A stretch of 61,021 nucleotides of DNA from Bacteroidetes bacterium HGW-Bacteroidetes-7 (GTDB taxonomy: Bacteria > Bacteroidota > Bacteroidia > Bacteroidales > UBA932), in NCBI GenBank assembly GCA_002842465.1, contig PHDA01000016.1:1-61021 (forward strand). The letters are read 5' to 3'. Shown here one piece after another: positions 6,649 through 22,373 of this stretch. Each line of letters begins with the position of its first letter. The first letter of the stretch is position 1. Both the position numbers and the translations under genes were made by a program. The notes below the pieces were generated by a model. It worked only from the letters and a program-made list of their open reading frames with translations. It was not told the origin of the DNA and searched no databases.

Positions 6649-8112
6649 ATGATTAGTATTCAGACAAAAATACACGACAGATATTCGGTTGAGTTTAAAA
6701 CATGGTTAAAAGCTGACACTAGCCTACTAATTAACAAATTTGCCGTAAACATCTGGGTATTTATCCCTTACAACCTTGACATCAACCGCTCTACCTACTC
6801 AAAAAACATGTTCTACAGGGATATCCGAACCAATATAAGGCTCATTACTCCTGTTTATAACCTTGAAAATATTGCCAACGAAAATTCAGAACCTCTCTTG
6901 TTTCTTAGGCAATCATTTCTGAAACTGGCAGAAACCCCTGATTCAAACAATATTGCCGACTTTGAGTACAACATAAAAATGTTCTCGGCAATCTTTAAAA
7001 GCTCTTTACGTAATTATGTTTTTCATATTATGGGAGAGCAAAGCACTCAGGCCAGAGATGCTGAATGTAAAGTGCTGATTATTGAGACAGAAAAAGTACT
7101 AAAGGAGTACAGAAACCTTTTTGAAATTATTCGAAATGGGAATATTCCTAAAGAATGTTCCGATTACTTTAAGTTTGGGGATGAGTTTTTAGGAAATATC
7201 GTAAACAGACAGTTTTTTAGACTATTAAACTATCTTAAACAACATGACTCAGGCGTATATTCTTCTAAAAAAGAGATTTTTTTAAACCTTCTTAAAGAAG
7301 AGATCCTGTACAGAAAAGAGAGGGGTTACCCAATTGTTGACAAAGAGAGTTCGAATATGAATCGTGACCTGGTCTACAGGTCAGGGGCTCTAAAAAAATA
7401 TGCTGAGAGCGAACTTTTCCTTAATGCTATCAAAAAGAGAGATGCGGTGCTTGTAGAGCAAATTTATCTTAGCTTGGCTGCCGGGATTTCAATGATATTT
7501 GCCACAGCAATAGCGTTCTCGTTTCAACTGAGGTTCGGCAGTTTTACTATGCCTCTGTTTGTAGCTCTTGTTGTAAGTTATATGCTAAAGGATAGGATTA
7601 AAGACCTTGTAAGATACTATTTTGCACACAAGCTAAAGGAAAAATATTTTGATAATGTAACCACCATAAGTTTGAACAATGTTCAAATCGGCTGGAGTCG
7701 AGAGGGAGTTGACTTTATCAAAGAGGAGAAGGTTTTACCCAAAGCAATGAAGATACGGGACCGGACTCCTCTCCTTGAGTCAGACAACAGAAGTTCTGAG
7801 GAGAAAATCCTGCTTTACAGAAAACTTGTGGAGATTGACCGCGAACAGCTTGATAAAAATTCGGAGTACTATATCTCAGGAGTAAACGACATTTTACGAT
7901 ATAACATCTCCACATATTTGAATAAAATGGATGACCCTTATGTTCCTCTTTATGTGGTATCTCCTGATGTAGATTATGAGGAGGTCATAGGAGAGAAGAT
8001 CTATTATCTGAACTTTGTGATTCAACTTAAATACGGAGAGCAAGAGTCCTTTAAAAGATATCGATTGGTCTTTAATCGTACGGGCATAAATGAAATTGAG
8101 GAGTTGTTTTAA
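6649..8112 (+). CDS. Unrecognised protein with two central membrane helices
   Basis: I do not recognise this family. The 487-residue product has a soluble, charged N-terminal part (~1-270), a pair of hydrophobic helices in tandem (about residues 275-292 and 298-313, the second starting FTMPLFVALVVSYM), and a soluble C-terminal part (~320-487). There is no signal peptide. The layout suggests a hairpin in the inner membrane with both large domains in the cytoplasm. Start is ATG; a TAnnTTTG-like box (TACCTTTG, 6598-6605) lies about 45 bases upstream. It is monocistronic, with a hairpin plus T-run after the stop. Base composition matches its neighbours, so nothing suggests transfer. Confidence 0.75.
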   Translation: MISIQTKIHDRYSVEFKTWLKADTSLLINKFAVNIWVFIPYNLDINRSTYSKNMFYRDIRTNIRLITPVYNLENIANENSEPLLFLRQSFLKLAETPDSNNIADFEYNIKMFSAIFKSSLRNYVFHIMGEQSTQARDAECKVLIIETEKVLKEYRNLFEIIRNGNIPKECSDYFKFGDEFLGNIVNRQFFRLLNYLKQHDSGVYSSKKEIFLNLLKEEILYRKERGYPIVDKESSNMNRDLVYRSGALKKYAESELFLNAIKKRDAVLVEQIYLSLAAGISMIFATAIAFSFQLRFGSFTMPLFVALVVSYMLKDRIKDLVRYYFAHKLKEKYFDNVTTISLNNVQIGWSREGVDFIKEEKVLPKAMKIRDRTPLLESDNRSSEEKILLYRKLVEIDREQLDKNSEYYISGVNDILRYNISTYLNKMDDPYVPLYVVSPDVDYEEVIGEKIYYLNFVIQLKYGEQESFKRYRLVFNRTGINEIEELF

Positions 8113-8137: not shown

Positions 8138-8166
8138 AAAACTGCTCTTTACAGAGCTTGGTTTTT
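8138..8166 (+). terminator. Probable Rho-independent terminator between convergent genes
   Basis: The segment contains GCTCT-ttac-AGAGC. The stem can extend outward as AAAAC pairing with GTTTT across a small interior bulge, and a run of five T follows on the plus strand. It sits 26 bases after the stop at 8112 and touches the stop codon of the convergent gene at 8165, so it could act in both directions. The A/T outer stem is symmetric enough for that. This is a visual fold only; no energy was computed. Confidence 0.45.
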
Positions 8167-9328
8167 AGTTTCTTATTTCGGAAATCTCTTTAATTGCTTC
8201 AATAGCCGCATCAACCTCCGCTTCTGTAGTAAACGCACCGATACTCATCCTTACAGTACCGTGCATATCAAAGGTTCCAATTTGTTTATGAACCAGTGGT
8301 GCACACTGAAGGCCTGTTCTTACAGCAATATTGTAATCAACATCCAGCATTGTTCCAACATCACCGGCCTCAAAACCTGCAATATTGAACGATAGTACCG
8401 GATTATGTTTCTCTCTTCCATTGGCACAGTAGGTTGTCACACCTTTTATTTTATTTACCTCTGTTACCAGTTTATCCCATAGATCCATCTCTCTTTTGTG
8501 AATATTCATAATACCCTCGGTGGTAATCCACTTAACTCCGGCAAAAAGTCCGGCTACACCAAGCAGATTTAGGGTTCCGTACTCCAGACGATAAGGATAC
8601 TCCTCCAGATGACCTCTGTATGCCGATCTTACTCCGGTTCCTCCCGCTCTTGTGTGGTTAATATGAACCCCTTCACGTACATATGAGCCTCCGATTCCTG
8701 TAGGGCCCATCAGACACTTGTGCCCTGTAAAGCAGTAAACATCAATTTGAGACTCTTGCATGTCAACATCTACCGACCCTGCGCCCTGACTTCCGTCAAC
8801 AACAAAGAGAACACCCTTCTCTTTACAAATCTTTCCGATTTCTGTAAGCGGTTGAATTGTTCCCAACACATTAGAGCAGTGTGTTACAATCACAAATTTT
8901 GTGTTCTCCTTAATGGCATTTTTAATGTCTTGAGGGTTAACATACCCGTCAAAATCAAAAGGCACATAGGTTACCTCAATTTCACCTTTCTGTTCTAAGA
9001 CGTACAGGGGCCTCAAAACTGAGTTGTGTTCAAGCATGGTTGTAACCACATGGCAGCCCTTTTCGACAAGTCCGTTGATGATAAGATTAAGCGAATCTGT
9101 TGCGTTATAACTGAAAGTTAGCCTGTTGTGATCTTCTCCTCCATTAAAGAGTTTCGTCAGCATCTTTCTTGTACCGTTCACAACCTCCTCTGCCTCAAGA
9201 GCTGCATCAAAGCCCGATCTTCCGGGACTTACCCCTTTGTCTCTGAAAAAGCTGTCCATAAATGTATAGACCTCTTCCGGTTTGGGATAGCTGGTCGCAG
9301 AGTTGTCCAGATAAATAAGTTTGGCCAT
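8165..9328 (-). CDS. Class V aminotransferase, cysteine desulfurase family
   Basis: The 387-residue product has the fold-type I PLP signature of cysteine desulfurases: IYLDNSATSYPKP at the N-terminus, a cofactor-stacking His (MLEHNS, about 101), DGSQGAG with the pyridine-binding Asp (~178), the Schiff-base Lys at about 204 (FTGHKCLMGPTG) and a Cys in the substrate loop (GLQCAPLVHK, ~342). It most resembles the branch often annotated only as 'cysteine desulfurase family protein', rather than housekeeping IscS or SufS. It starts 12 bases after the stop of the DsrK-like gene, so it is the last gene of the dsrC-dsrM-dsrK operon. A role in giving persulfide sulfur to DsrC is inferred from this position. 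Confidence 0.9.
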   Translation of the reverse strand: MAKLIYLDNSATSYPKPEEVYTFMDSFFRDKGVSPGRSGFDAALEAEEVVNGTRKMLTKLFNGGEDHNRLTFSYNATDSLNLIINGLVEKGCHVVTTMLEHNSVLRPLYVLEQKGEIEVTYVPFDFDGYVNPQDIKNAIKENTKFVIVTHCSNVLGTIQPLTEIGKICKEKGVLFVVDGSQGAGSVDVDMQESQIDVYCFTGHKCLMGPTGIGGSYVREGVHINHTRAGGTGVRSAYRGHLEEYPYRLEYGTLNLLGVAGLFAGVKWITTEGIMNIHKREMDLWDKLVTEVNKIKGVTTYCANGREKHNPVLSFNIAGFEAGDVGTMLDVDYNIAVRTGLQCAPLVHKQIGTFDMHGTVRMSIGAFTTEAEVDAAIEAIKEISEIRN

Positions 9329-9340
9329 ATTAAGTTTAGT

Positions 9341-10624
9341 TTATTGTTTATTTATAACCAGGGCGTCTGCCACTATTTCGGCAATTGTCATAATCTTAAC
9401 CCCTAGTTTGTATGTATGATTCAATTGTTGAAGTTGATCTACGCAGTTATGACACGGAGTAATCACCACTTTTGCACCACTTTTTGCAATCTGTTGTGCC
9501 TTAATTGCCCCTATCTTAATGCGTCTTTCGTTATACTCGCTCATTGCAAGAGCTCCGCCTCCCCCTCCGCAGCAGAAATTGTCCTCGCCGTAGGGACTCA
9601 TCTCCTGAAGGTCAGATACTGCGCTTTTTACTACAAACCTAATTTCGTTAAAGAGGCCTCCATTTCTAACAAGGTTGCAAGGGTCATGTATAGTGACCTT
9701 AGTGCTGTTTAATGATTTATCAAGAGTTATTTTACCTTCGCGAATGTAAGAGGCGATTAATTCTACCGCAGTTATTGTCTCAAAATCAAATTTTGTCTTC
9801 AGATAGCCCGGTCCCTCCCATCTTGTTGCCCTTGAGCCGTGCCCACACTCGCCAAGCACAAGTTTTTTACCTCTTAATTTATGAATCTCGTCATATAGAT
9901 ATCCGGCAATTTGAGCAGCCTGGTCGTTATTACCATTAAAAAAACCATAATTGGTTACATCATAGTACTTTGAAGAGATAGTCCAGCTCTCGCCCGCAGC
10001 ATAGAAGACCTTAGCAATTGCACTTATTGAAAGTGGGAAAAATTTAGGTTCTCTTGGATTTAAGGTGTAGAAAACATTTTTATCTGTTTCGTCAAGAGGA
10101 ATTCTTGCATTTGCATCTTCCATCTCGTCAATCAGCTCCTCCTCCATCCATTTAATTGTATCAACAAACTCCTCCTGAGGAATCGCCATGTTGTTACCTG
10201 TATTCAAAGCGGCATCTACTGTCGATTGAAGCGTTGCAGGAACCATGTTCATAACTGCAAGCATCTCTCTGCCCTTTCTGACAATGTAAGGAATATCAAC
10301 CCCGATAGAGCAGTGTTTTACACACCTGCCGCACATTGTACATGCCCCAAAAAGCATATCAACCATCTTGTCTGCCATCTCTTTGTCCAACTCTTTAGCA
10401 TTAAAGAGCGAAGGGGCTATTTTCCCTGTAAATGTGTTGTATCTTCTGTAAATAGATGAGACCAGTTCAGCCTTTGCTCCTGGAACATACTGCGGTTCTT
10501 TGAACGCCAGGTAGTACATGCAGCTTTCGGCACAAAGACCGCATTTAACGCAAGAGTTCATGTTTGTCTCCAGCTTACTGTCATCTTTTTTGCTTAATAT
10601 CTCAAGTGGTTTTTTTATATCCAT
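9341..10624 (-). CDS. DsrK/HdrD-like iron-sulfur oxidoreductase
   Basis: The N-terminal third binds two [4Fe-4S] clusters (CVKCGLCAESC near residue 28 and CTMCGRCVKHC near 100). The C-terminal half has the cysteine-rich CCG set that binds the non-cubane site of heterodisulfide reductases: GECGH, HDPCNLVRNGG, FCCGGGGG and PCHNC. This is the arrangement of DsrK and HdrD, which reduce disulfides or trisulfides with electrons from a membrane partner. The partner, a DsrM-like cytochrome, is the gene directly upstream, with its stop at 10642. I chose ATG 10624 because AGGGG lies seven bases before it; ATG 10639 is also possible. It could also be read as a generic (Fe-S)-binding protein, but the adjacent dsrC argues for DsrK-like function. 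Confidence 0.85.
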   Translation of the reverse strand: MDIKKPLEILSKKDDSKLETNMNSCVKCGLCAESCMYYLAFKEPQYVPGAKAELVSSIYRRYNTFTGKIAPSLFNAKELDKEMADKMVDMLFGACTMCGRCVKHCSIGVDIPYIVRKGREMLAVMNMVPATLQSTVDAALNTGNNMAIPQEEFVDTIKWMEEELIDEMEDANARIPLDETDKNVFYTLNPREPKFFPLSISAIAKVFYAAGESWTISSKYYDVTNYGFFNGNNDQAAQIAGYLYDEIHKLRGKKLVLGECGHGSRATRWEGPGYLKTKFDFETITAVELIASYIREGKITLDKSLNSTKVTIHDPCNLVRNGGLFNEIRFVVKSAVSDLQEMSPYGEDNFCCGGGGGALAMSEYNERRIKIGAIKAQQIAKSGAKVVITPCHNCVDQLQQLNHTYKLGVKIMTIAEIVADALVINKQ

Positions 10625-10641
10625 CTCATTTCCCCTCATCT

Positions 10642-11277
10642 CTAATTTTTCTTTGATACAGGCCAGGTTCCACGTCTTCCGTAAAAGTAGCCAAGATGTA
10701 TCCTGGCAAAGAAGAAGTAGAGCAAATGTTTTGTTTTTCCTAAAGGTAACCAGATAAAGAAAGCTGCAGCTGTAATGTAGTATAAAACAGGAGGTATAGC
10801 ACTTATTATAATAAGAGCTGTAACAGCCTGAATTGCAGTGGTAAGAAAATTCGAAATATAATCGTCTGCAGAAGAAAAATATCTTAGTTTATCTGTAATT
10901 AACCTCTTTATTAATATCCCTGCTCCGGAAATGGCTGATATTGCAAGACCTCCTGCTACTAAATAAATAATAATCTGAGGTAAACTTTCAAGAATATCTG
11001 ATAAAAGTAAAATTACAGGAAACATAAAAAGTGAAGTAAAAGTTCCTATATGATAGACAATCCCGGCAAAATAAGTAGGCATATGCATGTAGGCACTCTC
11101 TTTTGCTTTAGGGGACATAGCGCCTGTAAAGGAGTATACTATACCATCCTTTACGCTTCCGCTTGGTTGTGATAACTCTTTAGGTAAACCAAGTTTTATG
11201 AGATTTACCAGTTTTGTTGTTAAAAGAGTTATGCAAAGAAAGGCAGATATTACTGCCAGTATTTGATACCACTCCAT
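10642..11277 (-). CDS. DsrM/NarI-like membrane cytochrome b subunit
   Basis: The 211-residue product has about five hydrophobic helices and ends with HLLYFFFARIHLGYFYGRRG, a C-terminus resembling DsrM. Candidate haem-b ligands are His residues in YMHMPTYFAGIVYHIG and in the last helix. NarI/DsrM proteins take electrons from menaquinol and pass them to the iron-sulfur partner, here the DsrK-like protein encoded next. It is short for DsrM, so it is probably a minimal version. I start it at ATG 11277; an upstream TTG (11313) would overlap dsrC but adds a non-membrane stretch. The gap from dsrC is about 26 bases. Confidence 0.78.
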   Translation of the reverse strand: MEWYQILAVISAFLCITLLTTKLVNLIKLGLPKELSQPSGSVKDGIVYSFTGAMSPKAKESAYMHMPTYFAGIVYHIGTFTSLFMFPVILLLSDILESLPQIIIYLVAGGLAISAISGAGILIKRLITDKLRYFSSADDYISNFLTTAIQAVTALIIISAIPPVLYYITAAAFFIWLPLGKTKHLLYFFFARIHLGYFYGRRGTWPVSKKN

Positions 11278-11303
11278 TTTATAAAAAAATTGTAGCAGAA
11301 CGG

Positions 11304-11621
11304 CTATACGCAACCATCTGGTTTAGGAAGACCGGCAACTCTGCAAGCTCCTCTTGCAGGGCCTAACGGAAAAAGGTCATAAATTTCACGAAGTTTAATT
11401 CCGGTCTCCTGACAAATTTTTCTGATCATAGGAGCATTGCCATGTGTCTCAAAATTATCTCTGATAATTTTAAGGATAGCCCAGTGTTTTTCGTTAAGTA
11501 GATCAATTCCGTCAGATTTTGCAATGAGAGCCGCAACCTCTTCATTCCATTCAGATGGATCGGAAAGAAATCCGTCTCCATCTACGTCAAAAACTCTTCC
11601 TTCAATCTCAAGTTTCGCCAT
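11304..11621 (-). CDS. dsrC: DsrC sulfur-carrier protein with both redox cysteines
   Basis: The 105-residue product belongs to the DsrC/TusE/DsvC family: MAKLEIEGRVFDVDGDGF at the start, then LNEKHWAILKIIRD, and a C-terminal arm ending GACRVAGLPKPDGCV. The penultimate Cys104 (CysA) and Cys93 (CysB, 11 residues before) are both present. TusE proteins for tRNA thiolation keep only CysA, while true DsrC uses both to form an intramolecular disulfide or a trisulfide with sulfite-derived sulfur. So the sequence points to DsrC proper, the substrate of a DsrMK complex. It is the first gene of the operon. No dsrAB sulfite reductase is encoded in this window. Confidence 0.9.
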   Translation of the reverse strand: MAKLEIEGRVFDVDGDGFLSDPSEWNEEVAALIAKSDGIDLLNEKHWAILKIIRDNFETHGNAPMIRKICQETGIKLREIYDLFPLGPARGACRVAGLPKPDGCV

Positions 11622-20469: not shown

Positions 20470-21246
20470 TTAATAAACATGTATACTTCCTTGTGCTGCA
20501 GGAAGATAATTAACACCCAACCAGGTTATCATAAGCATTACAAATGCTAAGGGAAGTATCCATAATATGACTCTGAGAGGGTATTTTTGTACTCTTGCGT
20601 GAATGTAAATAACATAAACTGCTGCTGTAATAAATGCCCAAACCTCTTTTGGATCCCATGTCCAGTAATCTCCCCAAGCCTCTTTAGCCCATATTGCACC
20701 CAGCAACATTCCGGTCATCAAAAAACCAAGCCCTATGTACGTTAAATTGTCAATTAACGGCATTAACCTTTCGCTTTTACTCTTTAACTCCCTTATAGCG
20801 ATGAATGATGCTATTGTTGCAGCTCCAAACATTGCATAAGAGAGAATATAGACCGTAACATGAGGTACAAACCATATACTTTGAAGTGCAGGCATAAGGT
20901 TGGTAAAGTGTATTTCGGGCTTTAACAGATTAACCGCAATGAATACCCCCGAAACAAGAACACTGTACCCGACCAACCATTTGTACCTCCACCTTAACCA
21001 GGTTCCAAACCCTACCAGAGTTATGAAAAATGAGTACCAAAGTCTTGTCTCTCCCATTGTTCTCAATGGAGGGTGCCCAATATCTCTCCACAGAAGGAGT
21101 ATGAAGGCCAAAAATAGAGCAAGCCCGGCAGAAATAAGAATATTGCCTGTAATAGCAGTTTTCTTATTTAGGTATAGTGATGCTACTCCAATTATCCAAA
21201 GCAACATACATGCTAGTGAAAACCAAATAAAATTGTCCCACATCAT
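20470..21246 (-). CDS. ccsA: System II cytochrome c biogenesis protein CcsA/ResC
   Basis: The 258-residue membrane protein has about eight hydrophobic helices and the tryptophan-rich WWD haem-handling motif (WGDYWTWDPKEVWAF, about residues 175-190), plus flanking His candidates (PHVTVY, IHARVQ). CcsA with CcsB exports haem and attaches it to CXXCH motifs outside the inner membrane. Its start overlaps the ccsB stop (ATGA). It ends the nrfH-nrfA-ccsB-ccsA unit, so its likely clients are the two cytochromes encoded just upstream. Confidence 0.92.
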   Translation of the reverse strand: MMWDNFIWFSLACMLLWIIGVASLYLNKKTAITGNILISAGLALFLAFILLLWRDIGHPPLRTMGETRLWYSFFITLVGFGTWLRWRYKWLVGYSVLVSGVFIAVNLLKPEIHFTNLMPALQSIWFVPHVTVYILSYAMFGAATIASFIAIRELKSKSERLMPLIDNLTYIGLGFLMTGMLLGAIWAKEAWGDYWTWDPKEVWAFITAAVYVIYIHARVQKYPLRVILWILPLAFVMLMITWLGVNYLPAAQGSIHVY

Positions 21247-22373
21247 GATTTACCTCCCTTCCAAAATAGTGTTATTGCACCAAAAATCATCATTATCATA
21301 CCTATGTAGGCAGGAATTATCCAAGGATCATATACCAGTTCAAAAAGTGACCAGACAGAGTCTCTCCCTCTTGCAGAATCGTAAGAGTGCTGGTATATTT
21401 TCCAACCTCCAATTGTCATTGGGTGGTTCACCCTTATTATTCCGTTTTTGACCTTTCCGCTTTGGGTATAAGCCTCAACCTTTGATCTGAACTCTTTGGG
21501 TTCAGGAGAGGTCATTGCTACACAGTAAGTACTGTCCAGGCTAAGGGTCTTAAAGTGTTGAAAATAGTTGCCGCAACTCACCCAACCTTCTGTTGCCTCA
21601 TCGGAATATATATCAGTCACCCTCACAAAGGCAGCCGGAGCATATCCTGGTTTATATACGACAGAATCTACAGTCAGAGTCCTGTTTTCGATGGTTGCAA
21701 AAGCATTCAGGTTAGCCTCAAAATAGAAGGGGCGCTTTTCAGGAAGAGCTATTCCGGTATTTCTTTCAATAATAGCAAGTTTAGGCGGATACTCATCCAT
21801 TTCAAAATCTTCCAGACTGATTGCAATCGGTAACTCTACAGCCTCAGCTCTCTCCTTACCGCCGCTCTTTTCTGCACGCCACTCCACCTTACCCTCAAAC
21901 ACCCTCATAAAATATCTTGCCTTATCTGCAGAACCCGGGCCGGCAGAAAAAAGAAGAATAAGCAGACCAATGTGATTTAGCATGAAAGAGATATCTTTTC
22001 TGAACTTAAAAATTCTGAGCCTCATTAGCACAGATGCTGTAAGGTTTATCAGCAAAGCCAGATAAATTAGTGTAAATGGCCATGAACTCTTTGCCGAGTT
22101 ACCCGGAACCAGACCCATATAGAGAGCAATAATTGCAACAGTACTAATAAGGATAATTGAAAGGGAGCCCGAAGCCAAATGCTTCAAAGCCCCTTTAAAA
22201 AGAATCAGTAAAACCGGTATCGCGGTTATAAGAATAAGATTTGCCGGAAAGGCAAGTATCTCTCTGTTAAAACCACCGGTAATTACCTGCAGAGCAAGCC
22301 CTGCGACAGTAATGGCAGCTACAATAACGGCCTCTATAGCAATCTTTTGTTCTCTCTTGCCTTTGCCAACCAT
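21243..22373 (-). CDS. ccsB: System II cytochrome c biogenesis protein CcsB/ResB
   Basis: The 376-residue protein has about four N-terminal membrane segments (residues ~13-135), a large periplasmic domain (~150-345, with VNHPMTIGGWKIYQHSYD, typical of ResB), and a last helix (IPAYIGMIMMIFGAITLFW). ResB-type proteins hold reduced apocytochrome for haem ligation by CcsA. In many Bacteroidota CcsB and CcsA are fused; here they are separate but overlapping. The start overlaps the end of nrfA by 40 bases. Confidence 0.88.
   Translation of the reverse strand: MVGKGKREQKIAIEAVIVAAITVAGLALQVITGGFNREILAFPANLILITAIPVLLILFKGALKHLASGSLSIILISTVAIIALYMGLVPGNSAKSSWPFTLIYLALLINLTASVLMRLRIFKFRKDISFMLNHIGLLILLFSAGPGSADKARYFMRVFEGKVEWRAEKSGGKERAEAVELPIAISLEDFEMDEYPPKLAIIERNTGIALPEKRPFYFEANLNAFATIENRTLTVDSVVYKPGYAPAAFVRVTDIYSDEATEGWVSCGNYFQHFKTLSLDSTYCVAMTSPEPKEFRSKVEAYTQSGKVKNGIIRVNHPMTIGGWKIYQHSYDSARGRDSVWSLFELVYDPWIIPAYIGMIMMIFGAITLFWKGGKS

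Follow-up and report, generated by a model that had tools for sequence, protein, structure and literature searches.

A linked set of dsrC, membrane redox-pair and cysteine desulfurase genes in Bacteroidales genomes without a NIR_SIR sulfite reductase

Respiration of sulfite and sulfate is known to end with the DsrC–DsrMK system. In the DsrC–DsrMK(JOP) system of sulfate reducers, a two-cysteine DsrC, a CCG iron-sulfur subunit and a membrane subunit occur side by side, and quinol-linked reduction of the DsrC sulfur adduct is expected. One report already noted DsrMK without detected DsrAB in some bacteria (PMC10504309). For HmcEF and TmcBC of Desulfovibrio, DsrC or ferredoxin was suggested as the cytoplasmic partner (PMC4215793), and electron exchange with DsrC was proposed for CCG proteins such as TmcB (PMC4215793, PMC10553843). 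The Tus relay (IscS-TusA-TusBCD-TusE) combines a desulfurase with a protein of the DsrC/TusE family. In addition, DsrC of A. vinosum was reported to be persulfurated by E. coli IscS with cysteine, which was abolished by mutation of Cys111; sulfide alone likewise persulfurated the protein (PMC3397948), so a desulfurase is not necessarily a specific loader of DsrC.

The window, a stretch of 61,021 nucleotides from the genome of Bacteroidetes bacterium HGW-Bacteroidetes-7 (92% complete), contains an arrangement related to these systems. Four tightly packed ORFs are located on the minus strand at positions 8165–11621, exactly where the sequence-only reading had placed them, and encode a DsrC, a membrane subunit, a DsrK-like CCG protein and a cysteine desulfurase.

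The dsrC gene (11304..11621, minus strand) encodes a protein of 105 aa that matched PF04358 in the Pfam profile search (115 bits, cut-off 24.9) and exceeded the cut-off of TIGR03342 (97.6 bits, cut-off 53.5). Its C-terminus, ...GACRVAGLPKPDGCV, holds both of the redox cysteines that had been claimed for it, in the form C93-X10-C104. The CX10C pattern was present at the C-terminus in 80/80 rows of class 1, the DsrC class of the window (76 different sequences), whereas E. coli TusE and all 8 second-type DsrCs read, a sample of 8 loci, had the last cysteine only. With the TusE model NF008562, the protein scored 67 bits, under the cut-off of 191 (E. coli control, 244). On the phylogenetic tree, based on 105 columns and a single TusE row, all class-1 sequences were on one side of a branch with a support of 98. 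They joined the DsrC of sulfate reducers with a support of 86, and not the Chlorobi-type DsrC, on long branches that, according to a warning of the tree program, were possibly joined falsely; the organism labels of four PDB rows on this tree are those we presume. Comparison with solved structures gave 36.6 bits to 7syb, which is listed as a sulfurtransferase and which we read as TusE-type, and 85.6–107.4 bits to seven DsrC entries. Membership in TusE was thus rejected on the model score, the two cysteines, the tree and the solved-structure scores; on the last two the protein falls away from TusE. The genome of the window also has a second DsrC, located beside SQR and DsrE2-like genes.

The gene at 9341..10639 (minus strand) encodes a protein of 432 aa. 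It has two four-cysteine sites, C30/33/36/40 and C100/103/106/110, a single CCG motif (C321, C356-C357, C396, C399) and, in addition, C265; all 14 of these cysteines were invariant in 24/24 aligned relatives. PF02754 (46 bits) and Fer4_8 were both over the cut-off. A Foldseek search with the AF2 model (pLDDT 87.7) identified mycobacterial EtfD as the best match (9ojn, 4e-14), together with HdrB (7bkb_B, 4e-5) and LutA, and the TM values of HdrB chains normalised to the target were 0.54–0.63. The CCG motif, the two ferredoxin-type cluster sites and the HdrB-like fold identify a CCG (HdrD/HdrB-like) oxidoreductase. The earlier assignment as a DsrK/HdrD-like protein therefore held for the CCG cysteines; however, by its model scores the protein is outside the curated DsrK family and nearer to HmcF and TmcB. 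The scores were 296 bits for HmcF (cut-off 750), 293 for TmcB (cut-off 735) and 229 for DsrK (NF045796, equivalog; cut-off 400), the last model giving 705 and 725 bits with two Chlorobi-type DsrKs as controls. Because of the position outside the DsrK model and an identity of 28–29% with Chlorobi-type DsrK, the partner of the protein may also differ. It shares the CCG site with the heterodisulfide reductases HdrB and HdrD, from which it differs by its single full CCG motif and its likely substrate, which would be DsrC and not CoM-S-S-CoB.

Of the four proteins, the membrane subunit is identified with the least certainty. Its ORF (10642–11313, minus strand) opens with TTG at 11313; the likelier start, which is conserved, is ATG at 11277 (MEWYQ...), giving a gene at 10642..11277. 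The Pfam search gave no match for this protein, and the curated models that responded were HmcE (23 bits against a cut-off of 275) and TmcC (22 bits against 240), both weakly. The AF2 model (pLDDT 91.4) has six long helices, and each of its top 8 Foldseek matches was NarI of E. coli, at weak E-values (0.14–0.31); the protein is probably a NarI-like subunit of the DsrM/HmcE/TmcC kind. Among the aligned sequences, H76 and H184 were present in 64/64 rows, H65 in 62 and H194 in 53. Haem binding may be suggested from these histidines, H194 being absent in 11/64 rows. Thus, among curated models, those of HmcEF/TmcBC score highest with the CCG protein and are the only ones to respond, weakly, to the membrane protein; unlike HmcEF/TmcBC, the pair described here scores far below the cut-offs, is linked to dsrC and a desulfurase, and has no multihaem cytochrome among its four genes.

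The fourth gene (8165..9328, minus strand; 387 aa) had been assigned to the cysteine desulfurase family, and its product passed TIGR01977 with 432 bits (cut-off 377). H203, K204 and C342 were invariant in 26/26 sequences; we take K204 to be the PLP lysine and Cys342 the catalytic cysteine position. Cysteine desulfurases, SufS among them, were its best solved relatives, and the best 60 of 65 distinct solved relatives are listed as cysteine desulfurases, selenocysteine lyases or similar, which added no further lead. The operon-type desulfurases formed a clade with a support of 100. The module is flanked in 5 loci by a second PLP enzyme, which is SufS-like.

The conserved linkage of the genes was checked in a draw of 295 genomes of the order, in which class-1 DsrC has 33 carriers (the window and 32 fetched genomes). 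All four genes were adjacent in 26 of them (the window and 25/32 fetched), which is far beyond chance and confirms that the arrangement is real. Module-type DsrK was found in 32/295 genomes, each with class-1 DsrC and none outside the 33 carriers (Fisher p 5e-42 for 295 genomes, kinship ignored), and 32 of the 33 carriers also have the operon-type desulfurase. In the 15 other genomes that exceeded the TIGR01977 cut-off, the copies were only 30–46% identical. In 15 families that include both carriers and non-carriers, the genes are present or absent as a set, except for the operon-type desulfurase, which is absent in G148. Linkage was incomplete in 38 other genomes, 33 of which retain all three of DsrK, DsrC and the desulfurase; the 30 desulfurase copies compared, out of 35 in such genomes, were 67–76% identical to that of the window. 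Across 112 loci, the four module families occurred in 106, 75, 73 and 67 and any other family in at most 14; since no further family recurs beside the four, there is no constant DsrJOP. The desulfurase gene lies on the opposite strand in 4/25 fetched full loci and is therefore not always co-transcribed. Single departures were also seen: in G073, a genome with no close DsrK, dsrC and the desulfurase gene are immediate neighbours; L039 has a split desulfurase ORF; and the DsrK ORF of L034 matches only partly.

Of 296 genomes drawn from the phylum, 6 matched DsrK at E <= 1e-60: that of the window, one module-type genome outside the order, and four in the family f136 (205–207 bits), whose DsrKs, two of the four scored with the DsrK model, appear to be Chlorobi-type. 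With one module-type DsrK genome outside the order, a phylum-wide trait was rejected. Also outside the order, G474 has the M and K genes and the desulfurase, with no DsrC match. The survey of contigs, which covered the best 80 of 441 matches and overlaps the order draw (L083 and G224), included one Ignavibacteriae record. By these searches, the module is mainly a feature of the Bacteroidales. The DsrK search of plasmid records gave no module (1 record, 27% identity); neither did the DsrC search, in which 18 records came from plasmids and 12 from phages, each at <60% identity and, where annotated, mostly TusE or phage DsrC.

The sequence-only reading is, as a whole, partly supported: the chemistry it proposed, in which the desulfurase would load DsrC and the membrane pair would reduce it, fits the evidence. 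None of the three results that it had named as refuting it was obtained: no NIR_SIR sulfite reductase was present, DsrC did not group with TusE, and both linkage and co-occurrence were strongly conserved. On balance, we consider it probable that these genes work together as a single module, with cysteine sulfur serving as electron acceptor. In such a cycle, whose chemical steps, direction, haems and quinone we infer and which may conserve energy, the desulfurase would replace DsrAB as the loader of DsrC. It would convert L-cysteine to alanine, holding the sulfur as a Cys342 persulfide, and pass it to DsrC, whose mobile C-terminal arm bears the accepting Cys104; no TusA or DsrEFH step is proposed, because neither belongs to the four-gene unit. 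Attack by Cys93 of DsrC would release sulfide and leave a DsrC disulfide (or trisulfide). The DsrK-like protein would then re-reduce DsrC at its CCG site, using menaquinol electrons that reach it via b-type haems in the membrane subunit. The net reaction would be cysteine + quinol -> alanine + H2S + quinone. From formation energies, cysteine + H2 -> alanine + H2S yields about -61 kJ/mol, with a couple near -0.10 V; therefore, the reaction with menaquinol would be near equilibrium at standard state. A literature search for the phrase "cysteine respiration" found nothing related.

The sequence-only reading had described an operon without dsrAB, and the genome-wide check agreed: PF01077 (NIR_SIR) was absent from the genome of the window and from 32/32 relatives carrying class-1 DsrC, 29 of which are >=90% complete and <=5% contaminated. 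The one-contig genome G224 likewise has the module and no PF01077. Thus, unlike the system of sulfate reducers, all 33 carriers are without a NIR_SIR protein, and a desulfurase stands where the sulfite reductase would be. A gene could be missing from a genome that is 92% complete; nevertheless, the idea that the genes were displaced from a dsrAB pathway, or stem from contamination, is contradicted by these genomes and is practically negligible. The same absence bears on the direction of the reaction. DsrMKJ was proposed in one account of a sulfur-oxidising pathway to make DsrC trisulfide and reduce quinone (PMC13293266), and a cysteine-derived DsrC persulfide could similarly be oxidised to the trisulfide here, with electrons passing to the quinone pool. 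This seems quite improbable, as no DsrAB would consume the trisulfide and the DsrC is nearer the reductive rows, by a join of which we are unsure. The desulfurase might also be a selenocysteine lyase and the module might handle selenide, since TIGR01977 includes EF2568, termed probably a selenocysteine lyase in one source (PMC2276186), and selD is over the cut-off in the genome of the window. However, selD was over the cut-off in 21/33 class-1 genomes versus 17/26 genomes without the module from the same families, which shows no association, and with 12/33 carriers lacking it at that cut-off selenium is unlikely as a shared purpose. G210 and G129 also hold another TIGR01977 copy ~1 kb from selD, that of G210 being outside the operon clade (43% identity); we regard the selenium explanation as very improbable.

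Two explanations with other purposes for the same proteins are each unlikely, though less so. One is a biosynthetic sulfur relay, in which DsrC would receive sulfur from the desulfurase and carry it, much as TusE does, towards thiolation or cofactors, while the membrane pair would do no more than keep DsrC reduced. DsrC/TusE is indeed a sulfur relay family (TIGR03342), and desulfurases normally supply biosynthesis (PMC13232883, section 9); however, class 1 has both cysteines where TusE and the second-type DsrCs have one, any other family is found next to the module in 14 of 112 loci at most, and the presence of class-1 DsrC in 33/295 genomes seems patchy for housekeeping thiolation. From the Tus relay, the module differs by its added membrane redox pair and by having no TusA or TusBCD among its four genes. 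The other is persulfide and thiol redox balance, in which DsrC would absorb excess sulfane sulfur (polysulfide, persulfide), the desulfurase being one of several inputs, and the membrane pair would reduce it protectively. The same parts would serve for this, the second DsrC with its SQR and DsrE2-like neighbours implies that sulfane sulfur handling exists in the genome, in vitro loading by sulfide alone was reported (PMC3397948), and a Crp-type regulator gene is located near the module in 5 loci. Such a function nevertheless does not account for the retention of a single desulfurase clade in 32/33 genomes, unlinked cases included.

Use of cysteine sulfur as an electron acceptor is therefore the reading we retain. 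In many gut, rumen and sediment Bacteroidales, the four-gene set probably strips sulfur from cysteine and releases H2S with electrons from the membrane. More tentatively, and quite possibly, it is a widespread respiratory or electron-disposal pathway of anaerobic Bacteroidales, including gut Butyricimonas, with cysteine sulfur as the terminal acceptor. A recent review placed the desulfurase iscS among erroneous gut H2S sources (PMC13232883, section 9); if our reading is true, the desulfurase would be a dedicated, electron-linked source of gut sulfide and not an accidental one. Since the carriers include, among the matches listed, named Butyricimonas isolates, the prediction is directly testable. 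Surveys based on dsrAB or asr markers would miss such sulfide production. DsrC and a DsrMK-like pair would work without any sulfite reductase, which for the assembly of Dsr systems would mean that the DsrC–membrane pair can exist with another sulfur loader, and the conserved desulfurase-fed version would be a new sulfide entry in rumen, gut, digester and sediment bacteria.

The window corresponds to contig C22 of its own genome (2.39 Mb, 92% complete), where all four genes of the module lie on the minus strand. The dsrC gene (11304–11621) encodes a protein that passed the PF04358 and TIGR03342 models. The other genes encode a membrane subunit (10642–11277/11313), a DsrK-like protein with PF02754 and Fer4 domains (9341–10639), and a class V desulfurase (8165–9328) that passed TIGR01977, a model described as cysteine desulfurase family. 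Upstream of the module lies a formate–tetrahydrofolate ligase gene oriented away from it. The convergent downstream neighbor (6649–8112, 487 aa) had no Pfam or NCBIfam match, and its family recurred in 5 of 112 loci compared (L072, L073, L074, L079, and L081). Genes for cytochrome c assembly (PF01578) and a ResB-like protein are located at 20470–22373.

In the order Bacteroidales, PF04358 was present in 94 of the 295 genomes drawn, and its matches formed two sets: class 1, with scores of at least 108.7 bits, which was found in 33 genomes and includes the window DsrC, and all remaining matches, with scores of 102.4 bits or less. The CX10C arrangement was kept in 80 of 80 class-1 rows (76 different sequences), and the last cysteine only was carried by the lower-scoring proteins of all eight fetched loci. 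Across the order, more genomes have the lower-scoring type alone (61/295) than have the module. A second DsrC, with a single cysteine, is encoded in the own genome (contig C12, 5002–5295; L002/L051), where its neighbors are a selenoprotein-subtype type III SQR (NF049943, 640 bits against 525) and a DsrE2-like gene that scored 99.7 bits, below 210. On the phylogenetic tree, class 1 lay on one side of a branch (support 98) and joined the DsrC of sulfate reducers (86), apart from the Chlorobi-type DsrC and the single TusE row, on an alignment of only 105 columns and with a program warning of possible long-branch attraction between class 1 and the rows from sulfate reducers. Among solved structures, the window protein matched seven DsrC entries at 85.6–107.4 bits and the sulfurtransferase 7syb at 36.6 bits. 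The window protein also scored well under the TusE model; a grouping with TusE, which the sequence-only reading had named as a refuting outcome, was not seen against the one TusE row.

The same reading had described the membrane pair as DsrM-like and DsrK/HdrD-like. The DsrK-like protein scored 229 bits against the curated DsrK cut-off of 400; two Chlorobi-type DsrKs reached 705 and 725. The HmcF and TmcB models outscored the DsrK model, yet stayed far under their own cut-offs. The best structural match of its fold model (pLDDT 87.7) was EtfD, followed by LutA and methanogen HdrB, among others. The membrane subunit was modeled with six long helices (pLDDT 91.4); its histidines 65, 76, and 184 were conserved and 194 mostly so, and NarI was the only consistent structural match, though a weak one. 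From these model scores, folds, and histidines it is therefore reasonable that the pair works like DsrMK, whereas membership in DsrK does not pass the curated test.

The window aside, 32 class-1 loci were retrieved, and the four genes were adjacent in 25 of them. The desulfurase was on the opposite strand in four of these full loci (L033, L035, L039, and L070), and frames were damaged or incomplete in two (the L039 desulfurase, split in two ORFs, and the L034 DsrK ORF, a partial match). Among the other seven, three genomes of family f2 had only dsrC and the membrane gene. L060 lacked only an adjacent desulfurase; L058 held dsrC and the membrane gene at a contig end, with its membrane-gene–DsrK–desulfurase part on another contig (L154); and L057 had another gene between the membrane gene and DsrK and was interrupted by a contig end. 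In genome G073 (L061, also L230), dsrC and the desulfurase are immediate neighbors close to a contig end; no DsrM was found beside dsrC and no close DsrK anywhere in the genome, and the pair may represent a loss, an assembly gap, or a minimal form. When the neighbors in 112 loci were clustered with minimums of 35% identity and 60% length coverage, the module's own families recurred in 106, 75, 73, and 67 loci, and every other family in 14 or fewer.

The genes also co-occurred at the genome level. The DsrK alignment matched 32 of the 295 genomes, every one with a class-1 DsrC, and G073 was the only one of the 33 class-1 carriers without a match. TIGR01977 was exceeded in 47 genomes, namely 32 of the 33 carriers (the exception being G148) and 15 others. 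Copies over the cut-off in these 15 non-carriers were only 30–46% identical to the window desulfurase; those of the 31 carriers besides the window, unlinked ones included, were 60–82% identical. On the desulfurase tree, a single branch (support 100) set apart the 74 operon-type rows, of which 70 adjoin module genes and four are unlinked; three further copies and 30 unlinked copies from the wider scan were compared by identity only, outside the tree. Carriers and non-carriers were mixed in 15 families, in each of which the markers were present or absent together, save for the G148 desulfurase (family f34); the non-carrier genomes of f34 and f46 are only 68% and 78% complete. The co-occurrence p-values were 5e-42 and 3e-30, with kinship ignored. 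Selenium as a common purpose was rejected: selD passed its cut-off in 21 of the 33 carriers and, within the same families, in 17 of 26 non-carriers. Two carriers (G210:C263 and G129:C162) have a further TIGR01977 copy roughly 1 kb from selD, probably the selenium paralogue.

When the genome collection was searched with the DsrK alignment, 441 relatives were obtained, and the counts rest on the best 80 of these. All 80 were labeled as Bacteroidales or other Bacteroidetes, save one as Ignavibacteriae; among them were Butyricimonas synergistica DSM 23225 and Bacteroidales CF, the latter a complete genome. Forty of the best 80 carried the full set, ordered and on a single strand, and one more had it with a 2.3 kb gap; the others showed dsrC, the membrane gene, and DsrK (5), the membrane gene, DsrK, and desulfurase at a contig end (1), or DsrK alone in the fetched stretch (33). 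In the 38 genomes with the three-gene set or DsrK alone, a match to the operon-type desulfurase was present elsewhere in 35 and DsrC likewise in 35; 33 genomes had the two, and the misses were G589, G593, G605, G621, and G622. Thirty of the 35 unlinked desulfurases were compared, and all 30 were 67–76% identical to the window enzyme. Many of the loci with DsrK alone (L052–L054, L116, and others) are labeled as from the rumen or animal gut. In one such group, dsrC with the membrane gene, DsrK, and the desulfurase each occupy a different site, which offers a natural experiment on whether the module works unlinked. Outside the order, a full-scoring DsrK was found in one genome (G474) of the 296 drawn across the phylum, adjoined by the membrane gene and desulfurase; DsrC was looked for there and not found.

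The domain PF01077, shared by DsrAB, AsrC, and the assimilatory sulfite reductases, was absent from the own genome and from all 32 class-1 relatives in a domain search of the genomes; 29 of these relatives are 90% complete or better, with contamination of no more than 5%. Run on control genomes, this search detected the domain in 11 of 14. For proteins with this domain, the proposal of a module without dsrAB held in the own genome and the 32 class-1 relatives.

Published work offers precedents for the probable mechanism. The DsrC of A. vinosum took up sulfur in vitro from E. coli IscS and cysteine, replacement of Cys111 abolished the loading, and sulfide without desulfurase likewise loaded the protein (PMC3397948). 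Cys111 is the counterpart of Cys104 in the window DsrC. The DsrC trisulfide is held to be reduced by DsrMKJOP with menaquinol as the donor (PMC10504309, PMC13232883), and electron transfer to DsrC was suggested for Tmc and CCG proteins (PMC4215793, PMC10553843). On this basis, the module would catalyze the net reaction cysteine + quinol -> alanine + H2S + quinone. Contact between desulfurase and DsrC is pointed to by the G073 gene pair and by an additional SufS-like PLP enzyme of class V (~495 aa, RGGC.CAG motif) that adjoins the module in five loci (L035, L036, L039, L042, and L147); its three scanned copies were below every curated desulfurase cut-off. The cysteine/alanine + H2S couple lies at about -0.10 V, as roughly estimated from formation energies; therefore, with menaquinol, the driving force would depend on sulfide removal, and we describe the module without claiming energy conservation.

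A pure thiolation relay is an alternative role, but it would need neither the two cysteines nor a membrane reductase. The module might instead run in the oxidative direction, although it comes without a trisulfide oxidase. Persulfide reduction by the module may also be protective. A divergent Crp-type regulator gene near the module in L036, L042, L063, L135, and L147 (one copy identified by Pfam) offers a lead to its regulation.

No description of this gene set was found in the open-licence literature searched, and many papers lie outside that set. DsrMK without DsrAB is not new, because a survey of Dsr proteins already noted it in some bacteria without identified DsrAB; the survey ties its neighborhood analysis to DsrABCMK-containing organisms, and no word beginning with "Bacteroid" occurs in the main text (PMC10504309). 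In human gut MAGs dsrC was counted as a gene (PMC9016944), and in sediment MAGs as a sulfur carrier (PMC12740246). Strain CF was predicted to ferment lactate and ethanol, with the module unmentioned (PMC3868857). The proposed module would share its Dsr-type reduction with the Dsr system and differ in having a desulfurase where that system has a sulfite reductase.
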